This document shows positions 6,713 to 27,311 of a stretch of DNA of 64,000 bases, in pieces (position 1 is the stretch's first letter; each line of letters starts with the position of its first letter). The position numbers and the translations under genes were made by a program. Under the pieces are notes generated by a model that was given only the letters and a program-made list of their open reading frames with translations, had not been told where the DNA came from and searched no databases. The stretch covers positions 2,480,001-2,544,000 of the forward strand of contig NZ_JBAJII010000001.1 in NCBI RefSeq assembly GCF_036867195.1, written 5' to 3'. This DNA comes from Arthrobacter sp. Soc17.1.1.1. GTDB taxonomy: Bacteria; Actinomycetota; Actinomycetes; Actinomycetales; Micrococcaceae.

Positions 6713-8631
6713 GCGGACCGTCCGACGTGCGACCGGGCCACCGGGACGGTCGCCGTCGGCGGGTCCACCGTGCCCGCGGTGACCTCGCCGGCCGTCCCTG
6801 CGCCGGCGCCGATGCCGGGCCTGCCCTGCCCGAAGCCGCCCTCGGACTTCCACGCCTGGAGGCTCAGCTGCTGGGGGTCGAGGGGCGCCACGGTGGTGTG
6901 CGAGATCTTGGGGTGCAGGGGCCGGGAGTCGTTCTCGCCCTCGCCCATGAGGTCCTCGTGCATCTTCTCGCCCGGCCGGAGACCGGTGAAGACGATGTCG
7001 ATGTCCTTGCCGGACATGGCGATCATGCGCTGGGCGACGTCGAGGATGCGCACCGGCTCGCCCATGTCGAGGATGAGCACCTCCCCTCCCCTGCCGATGG
7101 CACCGGCCTGCACCACGAGCTGGCAGGCCTCGGGGATGGTCATGAAGAAGCGGGTGACCTCGGGATCGGTCACCGTGATGGGGCCGCCGTTGCGGATCTG
7201 CTCGGTGAACAGCGGCAGCATGGAGCCGCGGCTGCCGATCACGTTGCCGAACCGCACCGAGACGTACTTCTGCCCCGTACGCTCCGCGTGCCAGGAGGTG
7301 AGCTTCTCCGCGACCCGCTTGGAGTGGCCGAGGACGCTCGTGGGATCCGCCGCCTTGTCCGTCGAGATGTTGACGAAGTTGGTGACGCCGACCGCGCCGG
7401 ACGCCCGCAGGACGTTGAGGGACCCCTGGACGTTGGTCTTCCACGCCTCCTCGGGGTACTGCTCGAGCAGCGAGACGTGCTTGAGTGCCGCCGCGTGGAA
7501 CACGACCTGCGGCCTGCGGTCCTCGAAGATGTCGAGCAGGGCGTCCGCGTCGCGGATGTCGGCGAGGACGGTGTCGCGGCCGGTGAGCAGCCCGCGCCCG
7601 GTGAGGGAGATCTGCGTGGACTGCAGCCCGGTCTCGTCCCGGTCCAGCATGATGAGTTCCGCCGGCGCGAAGGTCGCGAGCTGCCGGCAGAGCTCCGAGC
7701 CGATCGACCCGCCCGCGCCGGTCACGAGGACGCGCTTGCCGGTGACGTAGCCGGCCACCTCGTCGGGGTGGATGTCCACGGGGCGCCGGCCGATGAGGTC
7801 CTCGACCGCGACCTCGCGGAAGTCGGCGATGGCGGCTCCCGCGGCGCCGAGCATGTCGCGCAGCGGGGGGAGGACGAGCACCTTGATGCCGAGGCCCGCC
7901 ACGAGGTCGGAGACGCGGCGCACCTGCGCGGCCTCGACCTCGGCGAACGCGATGACGAGGACCTGCGCCTGCGTCCTGGCGGCGATGTCCCGGAGGTCGT
8001 CGATCCGCCCGAGCACGGGCACGGCGGACAGCCGGAGGTGCTTCTTGGCGGGATCGTCGTCGACGAGGCCCACCGGGAAGTAGGGGGACTCGGGGTCCTG
8101 CATCATGCGCTTCACGAGCGAGTTGCCGAGGAAGCCGGCGCCGTAGATGAGGGTCCGCTGGGCGTCCTCCCCGGGCTTGGCCTTGCTCTCCACGTACATG
8201 CGCTTCAGGTAGCGGGTCGCGGCGAGGAACATGCACGCGAAGGGGAACGCGATGATCCCGATGCTGCGCGGCACCTCGATGACGCTGAAGAAGGCCACGC
8301 CGGTGAGCACGAGGATGACGGCGACGAGCACGGCGACGATGACCAGCAGCTTGGCCTCGTGGAAGCTGCCGAAGCTGTACCTGCCGCGGTACAGGGCGAA
8401 GCTGAGTCCCACCACCAGCTGGGCGATGACGGCCACGGCGCAGAACGCGGCGATGCCCGGGACGTTGACCTCCTTCACGAGGAGCTCGTAGCGCAGGATC
8501 AGCGCGAGGAGGATGGCGACGATCCAGGCGACGGCGTCGAGCAGGTACTGCGACCACAGCCAGATCGCAGGCTTGTCGCCTGATGGAGCCGCGGCGGTGG
8601 AGCCCGGCGGGCGGCCTTCGTTGAGTCCCAT
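6709..8631 (-). CDS. CapD/FlaA1-type nucleotide-sugar 4,6-dehydratase/epimerase
   Basis: Membrane-anchored short-chain dehydrogenase that converts a UDP-HexNAc to a 4-keto-6-deoxy or epimerised sugar for surface polysaccharide. From the ATG at 8631 the product is 640 residues. It has four membrane helices (about 28-140), a first Rossmann domain (YGAGFLGN, 163-170) and a second, catalytic SDR domain with GAGGSIGSE (306-314). STDKAADP replaces the usual Ser-Tyr catalytic pattern, as in the FlaA1/CapD group, and LRPGEKMHEDL lies near the end. The C-terminal 60 residues are low-complexity. AGGA precedes the ATG. It overlaps the WecA-like gene and probably supplies its sugar. Confidence 0.9.
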   Translation of the reverse strand: MGLNEGRPPGSTAAAPSGDKPAIWLWSQYLLDAVAWIVAILLALILRYELLVKEVNVPGIAAFCAVAVIAQLVVGLSFALYRGRYSFGSFHEAKLLVIVAVLVAVILVLTGVAFFSVIEVPRSIGIIAFPFACMFLAATRYLKRMYVESKAKPGEDAQRTLIYGAGFLGNSLVKRMMQDPESPYFPVGLVDDDPAKKHLRLSAVPVLGRIDDLRDIAARTQAQVLVIAFAEVEAAQVRRVSDLVAGLGIKVLVLPPLRDMLGAAGAAIADFREVAVEDLIGRRPVDIHPDEVAGYVTGKRVLVTGAGGSIGSELCRQLATFAPAELIMLDRDETGLQSTQISLTGRGLLTGRDTVLADIRDADALLDIFEDRRPQVVFHAAALKHVSLLEQYPEEAWKTNVQGSLNVLRASGAVGVTNFVNISTDKAADPTSVLGHSKRVAEKLTSWHAERTGQKYVSVRFGNVIGSRGSMLPLFTEQIRNGGPITVTDPEVTRFFMTIPEACQLVVQAGAIGRGGEVLILDMGEPVRILDVAQRMIAMSGKDIDIVFTGLRPGEKMHEDLMGEGENDSRPLHPKISHTTVAPLDPQQLSLQAWKSEGGFGQGRPGIGAGAGTAGEVTAGTVDPPTATVPVARSHVGRSA

Positions 8632-8850
8632 GATTCCTAACGGTGTCAGGCAGCCACCGTGTCCGGCACCGGATCCGCCTGCCGCTGCCGGGGTGCTCCG
8701 GTACCGGCGCGGCCGGTGCCCGGTCCGGCGGGGCTGGTCCGGCGGGTGCTGGAACACGGTGTAATAGACTGCTGTTACCCGAGAATACTAGCCGCCCCGC
8801 CCGTGACAGGCCCGTTGCGCACCGCGCTGGCGCGGCCCGGAAGGACCACG

Positions 8851-9825
8851 TTGCACGCCACCGACGCCGGCAGTCCGCGCGTGTTCATCGTCATCACCAC
8901 CTTCAACCGGGCCGACCACCTGCGGGACCTCCTCGCGTCGATCGACGCCATGGACCCGGCACCGTCGGGCGTGATCGTCGTCGACAACGCGAGCACCGAC
9001 GGCACCCCTGAGCTCCTGGCGGCCCTCGCGCCGCGCGTGCCGGTCCTCGTGCACCGCCTCCCGGTTAACGTCGGCGGGTCCGGCGGCTTCGCGGCCGGCG
9101 TGTCGCGCGGCCTCGAGGAGGGCGCCGAGTGGCTGTGGCTGATGGACGACGACGTCGTGGTGCTGCCCGACGCCCTCGCGTCCTTCCGTCCCTGGCTGGA
9201 CCGCTACTCCTGCATCCACGGGCGCCGGTACGACCACGCCGGTGAACCGTTCTTCTGGCAGCACATCCTCAACGAGTCCCTCGGCGTGCACCTGCCGGTG
9301 CGCGGGGACGTCTTCGCGCGGTCCCGGGTCTTCCACACCAACGTGGGCTGCTTCGAGGGCATGCTCGTGGCCGCGGACGTGGTCCGGGAGATCGGGCTGC
9401 CCGACGCCCGGTTCTTCCTCAACGGCGACGACCTCACCTACGGCTGGCTGATCTCCCGGCGGTACCCCGTGGCGTACGTCGACGCCTTCGTGCTCCGGAA
9501 GACGCGTGCCCAGCGGCAGGTGGACCTCGGCGTGCGGCACCTCAACGACTCCAGCGACCTCTCGCGCTTCTGCGGCATGCGCAACCGGGGGCACCTCGCC
9601 CGCTACCTGCGCCTGCACGGCCGCTTCAGTCCGGTGGGGTTCGGCCTCGGGACGCTCCTCTCGGCCGGGAAGGAGCTCGTGCGCCTCGTCGCCGTCGAGC
9701 GGTCCCTTTCCGGCGCGGGCGCCCTCTGGCGGGGCTGGCGCGCCGCGCGAGCCATCCTGCGCGATCCCCTCTGGCAGCCCGAGCCGCCACTGGCGGAGCG
9801 TGCGCATACCGGGGGAACGCGGTGA
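8851..9825 (+). CDS. GT2 family glycosyltransferase (GlfT1-like)
   Basis: Cytoplasmic GT-A fold transferase. The domain starts VFIVITTFNRAD (11-22), with VDNASTDG (45-52), the LGGSGGF-like VGGSGGF (74-80), and the metal/nucleotide-binding triplet in LWLMDDDV (DDD 99-101). The later NVGCFEGM and FFLNGDDLTYGW segments resemble actinobacterial galactofuranosyl/rhamnosyl transferases of the GlfT1 kind; acceptor and donor are not certain. I prefer the TTG start at 8851 because GGAAGGA lies five bases upstream; an in-frame GTG at 8803 lacks a ribosome-binding site. It overlaps the next gene by GTGA and is divergent from the CapD-like gene. Confidence 0.85.
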   Translation: MHATDAGSPRVFIVITTFNRADHLRDLLASIDAMDPAPSGVIVVDNASTDGTPELLAALAPRVPVLVHRLPVNVGGSGGFAAGVSRGLEEGAEWLWLMDDDVVVLPDALASFRPWLDRYSCIHGRRYDHAGEPFFWQHILNESLGVHLPVRGDVFARSRVFHTNVGCFEGMLVAADVVREIGLPDARFFLNGDDLTYGWLISRRYPVAYVDAFVLRKTRAQRQVDLGVRHLNDSSDLSRFCGMRNRGHLARYLRLHGRFSPVGFGLGTLLSAGKELVRLVAVERSLSGAGALWRGWRAARAILRDPLWQPEPPLAERAHTGGTR

Positions 9826-10766
9826 CCTGGCTCGTGGTCGGCGGTTCCGGGTTCGTCGGCTCCTCGGTGCTGCGCGCCCTGGGCGCCGCGGGGATCGATG
9901 CCCGGGGGCTGCCCGCCCCGCGTCTGGCGGCCTCCGCGCAGACCCCGGCCGCGCTCCTGGAGGCGGCAGCCGCCACGGACGTCCCCGGCCTGGTGGCTGC
10001 GCTGCAGGGGCACGACGTCGTCGTCAACGCCGCCGGGCTCGCCACCCCTTCCGCGCCCGAGGGGGCGGATCTGCTCGGCGCCAACGCCCTGCTCCCCGCC
10101 GTCCTGGCCCGCGCCGCGGTGAGAGCCGGGACGGGTCGCCTCGTCCACCTCAGCAGCGCGGCGGTGCAGGGCCGGACGGACAGGCTCGACGAGTCGCGGA
10201 CCGTCCGCCCGTTCTCCGCCTACTCGCGCAGCAAGGCGCTCGGCGAGCAGGCGCTGGCACTCGCGGCGGACGCGGCGCCCGGACTGTCCGTGGTGACGGT
10301 CCGCGCCACCTCGGTGCAGGGCCCGGCCCGCCTGACGACCGCGGCGCTCGTGCGGCTCGCGCACTCGCCGCTCGCCTCGGTGGCCTCCCCCGGCACGGCG
10401 CGGTCGCCGGTCACCTCCGTGGACGCCCTGGCGGGCCTCGTCCTCGCCGTCGGACGCCACCGCGGCGCAGTGCCGGGCATCGTCCTCCAGCCGTGGGAGG
10501 GCCTCACCGTCCGCACCGTCCTCGAGGCGGCCGGCGGACGGCCGCGCGTCCTGCCGGCCGCGCTCTGCCGCGCCGCCGTCGTCGGCGGCTATGCGGTGTC
10601 CTCGGTCCTCCGCGGGCGCCTCGACGGCCACGTGCGCCGCGTGGAACTGATGTGGTTCGGCCAGGACCAGGTGCCCGGCTGGGCCGTGGAGCAGGAGCTC
10701 GCACCCGCGCCCCGCGTGCGGGAGGTCCTGGCGCAGGCGGACGGACACCGGTCCGCTCCTGCCTGA
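9822..10766 (+). CDS. NAD(P)-dependent sugar epimerase/reductase (extended SDR family)
   Basis: A 314-residue Rossmann protein starting VTWLVVGGSGFVGSSVL, with the GxxGxxG dinucleotide motif at 8-14. The active site looks like VHLSSAAVQG for the Ser region and YSRSKALGE for the Tyr-x-x-x-Lys region. The extended-SDR architecture suggests a nucleotide-sugar epimerase or 4-keto reductase. The GTG start overlaps the glycosyltransferase stop by four bases, so the pair is co-translated and likely acts on the same glycan. The substrate is unknown. The gene ends close to a tandem-repeat tract that separates it from the convergent Sua5 gene. Confidence 0.82.
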   Translation: MTWLVVGGSGFVGSSVLRALGAAGIDARGLPAPRLAASAQTPAALLEAAAATDVPGLVAALQGHDVVVNAAGLATPSAPEGADLLGANALLPAVLARAAVRAGTGRLVHLSSAAVQGRTDRLDESRTVRPFSAYSRSKALGEQALALAADAAPGLSVVTVRATSVQGPARLTTAALVRLAHSPLASVASPGTARSPVTSVDALAGLVLAVGRHRGAVPGIVLQPWEGLTVRTVLEAAGGRPRVLPAALCRAAVVGGYAVSSVLRGRLDGHVRRVELMWFGQDQVPGWAVEQELAPAPRVREVLAQADGHRSAPA

Positions 10767-23817: not shown

Positions 23818-24056
23818 CTAACCAGCATAGCGGCGCGTACCTCGGCGCCCCGATTCCCGTGACGCAGCCGACGCGACGTCGGGCACTGCTGCAGCCACGG
23901 GCCGCTTGTGCTCCACGGAACAGTCCGATGTGCTGGGGGAAACGAATCACGCAGTGGAACGTTGGACGGAACAGGCACGTTAGTTCGAGCTTCAACCTTC
24001 GCATCGGTATCGGGCCGTCCCGCCCGGTCCCGTCCCGCCGACCCCAGGAGCACCCA

Positions 24057-24680
24057 ATGACCGTCCGCCTCCCCGATGCCCTCCCGGCATCGACCTCCGC
24101 TTCCCCCTCCTCTCCCTCTGCTTCCGCTCCGGCTTCTCCCTCTTCCTCCGCCCGGACGAACGCTCCGACGACCGGCAGGGCAGCGTCCCCGCTCCCCCGG
24201 CGGGTCCTGACGGCCCTCGCGGCGGTCTCGATCCTGGGGGCAGCGGGCTGCGCCGGGGCCGAGGCCGAGCCTCCCGCCCCGGAGTCCCAGGCCGCGGCCC
24301 CGGCGGAGTCCCCGGCAGGGACCGGCGAGGCACCGGCGACGACGGAGGCCGGCGACGCCGCGGGTCCGGCCGCCGCAGACCAGGTGTACGAGGACGGCAC
24401 CTACACGGAGACCGGCTCCTACCAGTCCCCGGCCGGCCCGGAGGAGGTGGGCGTGACCATGACGCTCGAGGCCGACGTCGTGACCGCCGTCGAGGTGGAG
24501 CCCATGCCCGACAACCCGACCACCACCATGTACCAGGAACGTTTCGCGGGAGGCATCACGGACGCCATCGTGGGCAGGAAGCTCGACGACCTCACGGTCG
24601 ACAAGGTGGCCGGGTCCTCCCTGACCAGCGGTGGCTTCAACGAGGCGGCCGACAAGATCAAGAGCGAAGCCCAGCTCTAG
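24057..24680 (+). CDS. FMN-binding domain lipoprotein (flavinylated electron carrier)
   Basis: A 207-residue exported protein. An unusually long Ser/Ala/Pro-rich n-region (1-47) precedes a membrane segment and a weak lipobox ending in Cys65 (LGAAGC). An Ala/Pro/Glu linker follows, then a C-terminal FMN_bind domain (about 105-207) starting YEDGTYTETGSYQSPAG. The flavinylation site should be in GSSLTSGGF (186-194), with Thr190 or a neighbouring Ser as FMN acceptor. ApbE, encoded next, makes that bond in characterised systems. The ATG at 24057 has AGGAG seven bases upstream. Inferred role: extracytoplasmic electron carrier. Confidence 0.85.
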   Translation: MTVRLPDALPASTSASPSSPSASAPASPSSSARTNAPTTGRAASPLPRRVLTALAAVSILGAAGCAGAEAEPPAPESQAAAPAESPAGTGEAPATTEAGDAAGPAAADQVYEDGTYTETGSYQSPAGPEEVGVTMTLEADVVTAVEVEPMPDNPTTTMYQERFAGGITDAIVGRKLDDLTVDKVAGSSLTSGGFNEAADKIKSEAQL

Positions 24681-24686
24681 GTCCCC

Positions 24687-25547
24687 GTGGCGGACTCCTT
24701 CAGCTTCGGGGCGATCGGCACCCGCTGGCGTGTCGACAGCGCCGCGGCGCTCCTGTCCGGGCACCGCGCTGACCTCCTGCGCCTCGCCGAGGAGTACGAC
24801 GCCCTCTACTCGCGCTTCCGCGAGGACTCCGGTGTCACGGCGCTCGCGTCGACGGGAGGATTCCTGCCGCTGCCGGACCACGGCGCCGGGCTCGGCCGGC
24901 TGCTGCGTTCCCTCCACGACGCCACAGGCGGCGGGGTCTCGCCGCTGGTCGGCGAGCGCCTGGCCGCCCTGGGGTACGACGCCGGGTACTCGTTCGTGCC
25001 CACCGCGGCACCGGAGCCCTCCCGCGCCTGGCAGGGCCTGCTCGACTGGACGGAGGACGGCGTCGCCCTGAGCGCACCCGCACTCCTCGACGTCGGCGCC
25101 GCGGGCAAGGGGCAGCTCGTCGACCTGATGCTGGAGTACCTCGTGTCCGAGGGGCACGACGACGTGCTCGTGGATGCGAGCGGTGACATGCGACGGACCG
25201 GCACCGGTACGATCACGGTCGCCCTGGAGCACCCCTATGATCCGACGTCGGCCATCGGGACGGTGCGGCTCGGGTCGGGGGCCCTGTGCGCGTCCGCCTC
25301 CAACCGCCGCGTATGGGGCGACGGACTGCACCACGTCCTCGACGCCCGGACGGGGCGGTGCATCGACACCGTCGTCGCCACCTGGGTCCTCGCCCCCGAC
25401 GCGATGACCGCCGACGGCCTGTGCACGGCCCTGTTCGTCGCCGACCCCGCCGATCTCACCCCGGACTTCGACTTCGACTACGTCATCGTGTACTCGGACG
25501 GTCGCGCCCGCTCGTCCGCCGCACTCCAAGGAGCCCTGTTCTCATGA
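24687..25547 (+). CDS. apbE: ApbE-family FMN transferase
   Basis: Transfers FMN from FAD to a Ser or Thr of a target protein, forming a phosphoester-linked flavin. The 286-residue product carries the family motifs LLDVGAAGKGQLVDL (the DxGxxxKG pattern), DASGDMR, HHVLDARTG and the metal-binding ADGLCTAL segment. It lacks an obvious signal peptide; known ApbE proteins may be exported or cytoplasmic, and how it would meet the lipoprotein is not clear from sequence. GTG at 24687 lies six bases after the FMN-binding gene, and its stop overlaps the next ATG (ATGA). Confidence 0.92.
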   Translation: MADSFSFGAIGTRWRVDSAAALLSGHRADLLRLAEEYDALYSRFREDSGVTALASTGGFLPLPDHGAGLGRLLRSLHDATGGGVSPLVGERLAALGYDAGYSFVPTAAPEPSRAWQGLLDWTEDGVALSAPALLDVGAAGKGQLVDLMLEYLVSEGHDDVLVDASGDMRRTGTGTITVALEHPYDPTSAIGTVRLGSGALCASASNRRVWGDGLHHVLDARTGRCIDTVVATWVLAPDAMTADGLCTALFVADPADLTPDFDFDYVIVYSDGRARSSAALQGALFS

Positions 25548-27052
25548 CCGCAGTACTCGACGGCCTGCTCGGCCGCATGACCATGTACCGGCTGACGCTG
25601 ACCCTGCTCCTGGTCCTCACCGCCGAGGCGTTCGTCCTGTCGGTGGCGGGGCTCCTCGCCTACACGCCGGCCGAGCTCGGCGGGACACTCGTGGCCGCGG
25701 TGGGCGGGACGATCGTCGGCACCCGGCTAATGGCCCTGATCCTGCGGCTCCGACCGCACAGCGAGTCCTCCCTCATCACGGGGCTGATCGTGTTCCTCAT
25801 CATGTTCCCGTCGAGCACCGCCGCCGGCCTCGGGGGGATCCTCGTGGCCGGGGTGGCAGCCGGCGCGTCGAAGTTCCTCCTGGCCTTCCGCGGGCGCCAC
25901 GTCTTCAACCCTGCCGCGGCCGGCGCCGTCGTCGCCACGCTCCTCGGGGTCGGTGCGGCCGCCTGGTGGGTCGCCAACGCGTACATGCTGCCCGTCGTCG
26001 CGGTGGGAGCCGCCCTGCTCCTCTACCGCACGCGGAAGCTGTCCATGGGGGTGGTCTTCCTCGTCGTGGCGCTCGGACTCCTCCTGGTGGGCCTCGTGCA
26101 GGGCGGCATGGCGCCCGGCGCCGGCCTCCAGCTGGTCCTGACCTCCTACCCCGTCCTGTTCCTGCTCGGCTTCATGATGACCGAACCGCTCACGCTGCCC
26201 CCGCTGCGCCGGCAGCAATGGCTCTTCGCGGCCGTCGTGGCCGTCGTGTTCGCGCTCCAGCCCTCCCTCGGCCCGGTGTTCCTCGGTCCCGAGTTCGCGC
26301 TCGTCATCGGCAACGCCGTCGCGTTCCTCATGGGGCAGCGGCGGGGCGTCCGGCTGTCCTTCGCGGGCTCGCGGCGGCTCACGCCGACCAGCACCGAACT
26401 GGTCTTCGCGCCGGCGAAGCCCGTACGGTTCCGCGCGGGCCAGTACATGGAGCTGAGCCTGCCGCACCGCGGCGCGGACGGCCGCGGCAGCCGGAGGGTC
26501 TTCAGCATCACCTCCGCACCCCAGCAGGACGACGTCACCTTCGGGCTGCGCACCACGGAGTCCGGCAGCTCGTTCAAGAAGGCGCTGCTCGACCTGCCGC
26601 GGGACGCACGGATCACCGGCACCCTCGTGGGCGGTGACTTCTGCCTGCCGCGCGACCCGTCCGTCCCGCTGCTGCTCGCCGCGGGCGGCATCGGCGTGAC
26701 CCCGTTCATCAGCCAGCTCAGGGACCTCGCCGCGCGGGGCGAGGTCCGCGACGTCGTCCTGGTCTACGTGGTGCGCGACGCACGGGAGATCGCGTACCGC
26801 GACGAGCTGGCCGAGCTCGGCACCCGGGTGGTGCTCTTCCTGCCCGCCGGGAGCGACGTCCCCCCGCTGCCCGGGGCATGGACGCTCGCGGGGGCGGAGC
26901 CTTCGGCGGAGAATCTCCTGGCCGCCGTACCGGACCTCGGCGGCCGCACCGTGCTCGTCTCGGGCTCACCGGCGTTCATCGGCGGCTTCCGCGCGGCGGT
27001 GCGTTCAGCGGGCGTGTCGCGGGTGAGGACGGACGCCTTCCTGGGCTACTGA
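25544..27052 (+). CDS. RnfD/NqrB-like membrane domain fused to ferredoxin-NADP-reductase-like domain
   Basis: A 502-residue fusion. Residues about 15-265 form eight to ten membrane helices with the RnfD/NqrB-type patches GRHVFNPAAAG (118-127) and TEPLTLPP (213-220). Residues about 270-502 form a cytoplasmic flavoreductase with the FAD motif RVFSITSAP (318-326), the NAD(P) motif AAGGIGVTPF (379-388), and a C-terminal SGSPAFIGG-type segment. No 2Fe-2S cysteines are seen. It would take electrons from NAD(P)H and pass them across the membrane, presumably to the flavinylated lipoprotein two genes upstream. The ATG overlaps the apbE stop, so the three genes form one operon. Confidence 0.88.
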   Translation: MTAVLDGLLGRMTMYRLTLTLLLVLTAEAFVLSVAGLLAYTPAELGGTLVAAVGGTIVGTRLMALILRLRPHSESSLITGLIVFLIMFPSSTAAGLGGILVAGVAAGASKFLLAFRGRHVFNPAAAGAVVATLLGVGAAAWWVANAYMLPVVAVGAALLLYRTRKLSMGVVFLVVALGLLLVGLVQGGMAPGAGLQLVLTSYPVLFLLGFMMTEPLTLPPLRRQQWLFAAVVAVVFALQPSLGPVFLGPEFALVIGNAVAFLMGQRRGVRLSFAGSRRLTPTSTELVFAPAKPVRFRAGQYMELSLPHRGADGRGSRRVFSITSAPQQDDVTFGLRTTESGSSFKKALLDLPRDARITGTLVGGDFCLPRDPSVPLLLAAGGIGVTPFISQLRDLAARGEVRDVVLVYVVRDAREIAYRDELAELGTRVVLFLPAGSDVPPLPGAWTLAGAEPSAENLLAAVPDLGGRTVLVSGSPAFIGGFRAAVRSAGVSRVRTDAFLGY

Positions 27053-27079
27053 CGCGGCCCTCGAGGGTCCCCGCGTTTT
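27052..27079 (+). terminator. Rho-independent terminator of the flavin operon
   Basis: ACGCGG (27052-27057) pairs with CCGCGT (27071-27076). An inner CCC-TCGA-GGG mini-hairpin lies between them, and a TTTT run at 27076-27079 follows. It starts at the stop codon of the fusion gene and lies before the tRNA, so it separates the two units. Confidence 0.55.
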
Positions 27080-27142: not shown

Positions 27143-27215
27143 GCCTTCGTAGCTCAGGGGATAGAGCGTCTGCCTCCGGAGCAGAAGGTCGTAGGTTCGA
27201 ATCCTATCGAGGGCA
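27143..27215 (+). tRNA. tRNA-Arg (anticodon CCG)
   Basis: A 73-nt cloverleaf. The acceptor stem GCCTTCG pairs with CGAGGGC (one G-U), with discriminator A. The D-arm GCTC...GAGC, anticodon stem TCTGC/GCAGA with loop CTCCGGA (anticodon CCG, reading CGG), and T-arm GTAGG-TTCGAAT-CCTAT are all intact. CCA is not encoded. CGG is a common arginine codon in this GC-rich genome. Confidence 0.96.
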
Positions 27216-27311
27216 CACCGACTCACGCAGAGTCCACCGCCGTCGGCCATCAGGCCGGCGGCGGTTCTGCTTTTGGTAGGCTCTCCAGCACGCGGTCCCG
27301 GGGGCCGTACC

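Follow-up and report, generated by a model that had tools for sequence, protein, structure and literature searches.

The closest described counterparts of the operon considered here, which lies in a 64,000-nucleotide stretch of Arthrobacter sp. Soc17.1.1.1 (NCBI RefSeq assembly GCF_036867195.1, contig NZ_JBAJII010000001.1, positions 2,480,001 to 2,544,000 of the forward strand; hereafter, the window), are the NQR/RNF-like flavinylation systems (Meheust et al. 2021, PMC8238504; Huang et al. 2024, PMC11334425). These systems contain the same parts and the same fusion as the operon, namely an NqrB/RnfD-type membrane domain with a PF00175 domain, an extracytosolic subunit binding flavin mononucleotide (FMN), and ApbE; they occur in the same lineages (Actinobacteria, candidate phyla, and Ktedonobacter), and the covalent-FMN threonine of RnfD/NqrB is likewise not kept in them. 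The module is therefore not new, since both the fusion and the cluster type are already described under that class name (PMC8238504). The Arthrobacter operon stands apart in being so divergent that PF03116 and PF04205 miss it at their cut-offs. Its ApbE lacks a signal, a feature on which no statement was found in the available descriptions of the class. The Rnf and Na+-NQR complexes share with the operon the RnfD/NqrB fold, an NqrF-type flavin adenine dinucleotide (FAD) domain, and an FMN-bearing outer subunit (RnfG/NqrC), whereas the operon has none of the other Rnf/Nqr subunits, a Pfam scan gave no ferredoxin-domain match in its fusion, and a one-way path with no known ion pumping is expected. 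The MsrQ-like actinobacterial flavinylation system (PMC8238504) also combines ApbE with an FMN-binding protein, but uses a haem membrane protein (PF01794), for which Pfam gave no match in the window genome (98.8% complete).

A candidate electron-export module

The operon consists of three genes:

24057 to 24680, plus strand: FMN_bind lipoprotein gene, ATG start, 207 amino acids
24687 to 25547, plus strand: apbE (FAD:protein FMN transferase), GTG start, 286 amino acids
25544 to 27052, plus strand: fusion gene encoding an RnfD/NqrB-like membrane domain and an FAD/NAD(P)H reductase domain, ATG start

The open reading frame (ORF) coordinates place 6 bp between the lipoprotein gene and apbE and an ATGA overlap between apbE and the fusion gene, exactly as described in an earlier note on this DNA. 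That note had also proposed that the genes move electrons from NAD(P)H to a flavinylated surface protein without the multi-subunit Rnf or Nqr complex. The operon indeed contains no other such subunits, and a canonical RnfD/NqrB (PF03116) was absent from the window genome by Pfam, with the same model matching in 4 of 14 controls. The genes probably form a self-contained NQR/RNF-like electron-export module; this is the best supported reading and agrees with the published proposal for the class (PMC8238504, PMC11334425). In this scheme, NAD(P)H would reduce the FAD of the fusion's reductase domain on the cytosolic side, and electrons would then traverse the membrane through the RnfD/NqrB-like domain, arrive at FMN bound covalently to the surface lipoprotein, and pass to an outside acceptor. 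The likeliest acceptor would be a metal, for example ferric iron, or some other oxidant of the envelope. The FMN would be attached by ApbE, most likely inside the cell, before the lipoprotein is exported or while export is under way. Gene content, folds, conservation of the flavin site, synteny, and the missing ApbE signal are supported by sequence and structural models, whereas flavin occupancy, the direction of electron flow, the compartment of flavinylation, and the acceptor are inferred.

The membrane domain of the fusion spans approximately residues 1-265 and the reductase domain residues 266-502. The latter matches PF00175 at 27.5 bits (cut-off 22), as do 40 of 40 aligned family members at E 1 or better. 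The former is RnfD/NqrB by both profile and fold searches, which bears out the assignment made in the earlier note; single-sequence Pfam and NCBIfam scans of this domain gave no match, a difficulty overcome with family alignments. A fold search with the whole fusion was swamped by reductase-domain matches and was redone with the membrane domain alone, and the whole-fusion profile found only reductase-type matches in the PDB among the best 60 of 183. In a weak alignment with the RnfD structure 7zc6, window residues 144-147 read A-N-A-Y at the place of GETS, and threonine occurs at position 145 in 53 of 90 rows, the window not among them. By this alignment, the covalent-FMN threonine of NqrB/RnfD is not kept in the window fusion, so that the flavin of the membrane domain would presumably be held non-covalently. 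The fusion is the only match of the membrane-domain profile in the window genome.

The lipoprotein carries a lipobox-like ILGAAGC (Cys65). Its family profile matches solved FMN-binding domains, namely 8p2a (1.3e-15) as well as 8p2b and 3o6u (both 1.6e-4), the last being an FMN-bind structure (PMC11334425), and 63 of the 68 aligned family members match PF04205 at E 0.01 or better. When the flavinylation motif register D-x-x-[ST]-G-A-[ST] (PMC12052999) is laid on the window motif D-K-V-A-G-S-S, Ser188 becomes the expected flavin residue. This position is S or T in all 91 aligned rows, and Thr190, two residues further on, is T in 86 and S in five. Placed near residue 190 by the earlier note, the FMN is predicted by the motif register to sit on Ser188, with Thr190 retained as the alternative site. 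The canonical SGAT motif is present in Patescibacteria members of the family. Among the FMN partner proteins of the wider loci, a sequence measure found a hydrophobic N-terminus in 71 of 80 and a lipobox-like pattern in 47 of 80. Tat export was rejected as a general route, since an RR motif is found in only 10 of 80 partners; the window protein is one of these (PRRVLTAL), so that Tat export is possible for it. No second lipoprotein relative scored above chance in the window genome.

Distribution and phylogeny

The fusion is present in 33 of 35 same-genus genomes, its own included, with one copy split over two contigs. A single-sequence search found no full-length fusion in 22 genomes that belong to the same order but to other families; the membrane-profile search gave a weak partial match in one of these (G054) and a strong match in another genome of the order (G310). 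Phylum-wide, this profile matches 59 of 296 genomes, of which five (own included) fall below E 1e-70 and the rest are weaker. A scan of genome contigs yielded at least 80 loci from Micrococcaceae, Microbacteriaceae, other Actinomycetota, many Patescibacteria, two Ktedonobacteria, and one Mesorhizobium metagenome-assembled genome. Among 93 loci examined, the fusion occurs in 90, ApbE lies just upstream in 82 of these, and lipoprotein plus ApbE lie upstream in 80 (68 of 78 after removal of the 12 closest relatives), a gene order that is beyond chance.

The near relatives P0005 and P0006, 90% and 89% identical, are Arthrobacter by name. In a midpoint-rooted tree of 82 of the 90 fusions (8 near-copies dropped), 43 of 44 Actinomycetota-labelled rows cluster with two Saccharibacteria rows (100/99), and other Saccharibacteria rows stand elsewhere. 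This split hints at possible transfer between the lineages. L039 and L054, two Saccharibacteria fusions that fall with the actinobacterial ones in the tree, also have the 'AIGT' ApbE start of the latter, a start that some other Patescibacteria share. On the Mesorhizobium plasmid pB2-1-1 (L165:5997-10428), the trio adjoins a divergent gene pair for cytochrome b and a VIT family protein, with pseudoazurin and NnrS genes in the same stretch. Two further records should be read with caution: P0014, an 84% identical fusion on a 59-kb contig labelled Vibrio cholerae, is probably contaminated or mislabelled, and a 49.5% identical fusion at 8521-9945 of NZ_CP081947.1, a 19-kb record labelled Pseudomonas sp. 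DR48 plasmid, possibly reflects actinobacterial contamination.

Gene neighborhood, regulation, and the acceptor

The operon is bounded by argS on the other strand (Pfam-confirmed) and by a tRNA-Arg(ccg) at 27143-27216, beyond which lie genes for DUF4129 and a MoxR-type ATPase. Three further features flank the coding region:

23938 to 23964, plus strand: promoter-like block GGAAAC-N16-CGTTG, read by eye from 20 aligned upstream regions
27053 to 27079, plus strand: weak, interrupted terminator-like hairpin followed by TTTT, -10.9 kcal/mol, directly behind the fusion gene
27236 to 27265, plus strand: strong terminator-like hairpin, z -5.5, behind tRNA-Arg

The terminator that the earlier note had placed behind the operon is thus represented directly behind it only by the weak hairpin, which is not distinguished from shuffles (z -1.2, with 23 of 200 shuffles equally good; z 0.1 in 43-nt context); the clear hairpin lies past the tRNA gene. 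In the upstream alignment, where three distant rows are poorly aligned and two row pairs are apparently identical (a 21st region, L160, was excluded because it had no BLAST match), the lipoprotein start at 24057 with the stretch AGGAGCAC is conserved in 17 of 20 Arthrobacter regions, window included.

Several observations weigh against the module as proposed, or against a metal as its acceptor. The window's own membrane domain is not matched by PF03116, and its lipoprotein reaches 16.4 bits (18.2 for the domain alone) against the PF04205 cut-off of 22, with a motif that differs at two positions from the published register. The whole lipoprotein also has a sub-threshold match to DUF7537 (PF24381, 15.6 of 31.7 bits), which disappears once the N-terminal part is removed, and two of its relatives are labelled DUF7537. 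Nine of 80 partner proteins fall under the hydrophobicity threshold, and eight of 90 loci have a fusion with no adjacent ApbE; in six of these eight an FMN protein lies directly upstream (two of the six also carry an ApbE at another place in the stretch), and the other two show neither protein in the stretch examined. DtxR/IdeR-like boxes number 4 in the window versus 6.6 expected, none near the operon, and the five genes scanned in its flanks there (a decarboxylase, argS, DUF4129, the MoxR-type ATPase, and one without assignment) include no metal gene.

Neighbor annotation covered chosen ORFs only (40 in all) and hence gives no rate of metal-gene linkage; within it, metal-transport genes were found near six loci. 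VIT1 is present in L082, 19 bp behind the operon, and in L165 as part of the divergent pair. NRAMP follows the operon at 21 bp in both L068 and L084 and at 136 bp in L056, and ZnuA follows it at 16 bp in L069; VIT1 is likewise reported in six NQR/RNF-like clusters (Meheust et al., PMC8238504). These genes favor metal reduction in the lineages concerned. Metal P-type ATPase neighbors, a protein cluster present in 10 loci, were set aside as weak evidence, the three scanned being of mixed kinds (L066, heavy-metal type; L045; L084), and an iron link from a Bifidobacterium apbE mutant (PMC5449479) was not used because it concerns another cluster.

The same module might instead serve envelope repair or stress defense, reducing quinones or oxidised proteins of the envelope in place of metals, a role that we regard as possible but doubtful. 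It would fit the promoter-like block, which is conserved with minor variation across the close Arthrobacter clade and resembles an extracytoplasmic function (ECF) stress-sigma promoter. It would also fit the two-component genes in the flanks of ~10 distant loci (touching the operon in a few, one pair Pfam-confirmed) and the absence of metal genes not only from the five window flanks but also among the five conserved Arthrobacter neighbors scanned. However, the block occurs in only 2 of 39 loci outside the close clade (background 13 of 949 windows) and is therefore not general, and no repair-enzyme gene stands beside the operon among the genes scanned.

Flavinylation compartment and direction of electron flow

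The window ApbE matches PF02424 at 107.5 bits (cut-off 25.6), and a Pfam scan found no second ApbE in the genome. An in-frame TAG begins 9 bp upstream of its GTG start, so no signal peptide can precede it. Signals were scored by the peak hydrophobicity of any 15-residue segment preceding the domain (threshold 1.8 Kyte-Doolittle), taking the longest possible reading frame, a choice that favors finding a signal. Four of the 82 adjacent ApbEs have no visible domain start (L025, L033, L047, and L074); among the remaining 78, of which 66 lie outside the 12 closest relatives, none has a hydrophobic N-terminus, the highest value being 1.46. By comparison, 26 of 29 top-scoring ApbEs of the phylum sample exceed the threshold (controls from the 30 best-scoring loci; L107 and a second L114 fragment were excluded for matches that begin late, and L116, L119, and L128 fall short of the threshold). 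None of 14 further, hand-picked phylum-sample ApbEs (L129-L142) has a hydrophobic N-terminus. Signal-less ApbE may thus be common in the phylum; it is not special to the operon, since several lineages share it, including the Mesorhizobium copy L093. In a same-class genome (L132:517-2119), three FMN_bind-like domains with SGATYTS motifs lie in an open frame directly before a signal-less ApbE.

The lack of an export signal makes it most likely that ApbE flavinylates in the cytosol, before or during lipoprotein export. We give an even chance to the full proposal that, in this system class, the lipoprotein precursor receives its flavin from the signal-less enzyme in the cytosol, the site of FAD synthesis, and that the flavinylated protein is then exported. 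Cytosolic ApbEs on record include one for a soluble fumarate reductase of Klebsiella and those described for two protists; no statement on a signal-less ApbE modifying exported proteins was found in the available literature text, with subscription papers and figures outside its scope. Export of ApbE without a classical signal, followed by flavinylation outside, would agree with characterised systems, in which ApbE typically acts outside the cytosol (PMC12052999), but is improbable given that none of the 78 trio enzymes has a hydrophobic N-terminus and that the in-frame stop forbids N-terminal extension in the window. Stop-codon read-through joining lipoprotein and ApbE, which in the window share a reading frame with one TAG between them (24678-24687), was likewise rejected, since the frame is the same in only 26 of 81 loci.

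RnfD/NqrB serves the return path in Rnf and Nqr. Inward flow, in which an outside donor is oxidised and NAD(P)+ reduced, has a precedent in one of the two Rnf/Nqr paths, which leads from the outer FMN back to a substrate in the cytosol (PMC8238504), but is very unlikely here, as the neighbors scanned included no conspicuous gene for an oxidase or an outside donor and the published proposals for the class run outward (PMC8238504, PMC11334425).

Implications

This branch often escapes Pfam models: among the 120 relatives listed, PF03116 is precomputed for 3. Tallies of such systems made with Pfam, such as the 127 clusters of PMC8238504, are therefore probably underestimates. The missing ApbE signal raises the sharp question of where extracytosolic flavoproteins acquire their flavin. 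Cytosolic flavinylation, if true, would reverse the accepted order, in which the target is exported first and then modified by an ApbE that is itself exported, and would apply to lineages from Actinomycetota to Patescibacteria. Arthrobacter has an aerobic lifestyle, and in this aerobic actinobacterium the operon is a small flavinylation set and apparently the only one, so that deleting its one apbE should eliminate ApbE-type flavinylation and reveal what the module does.
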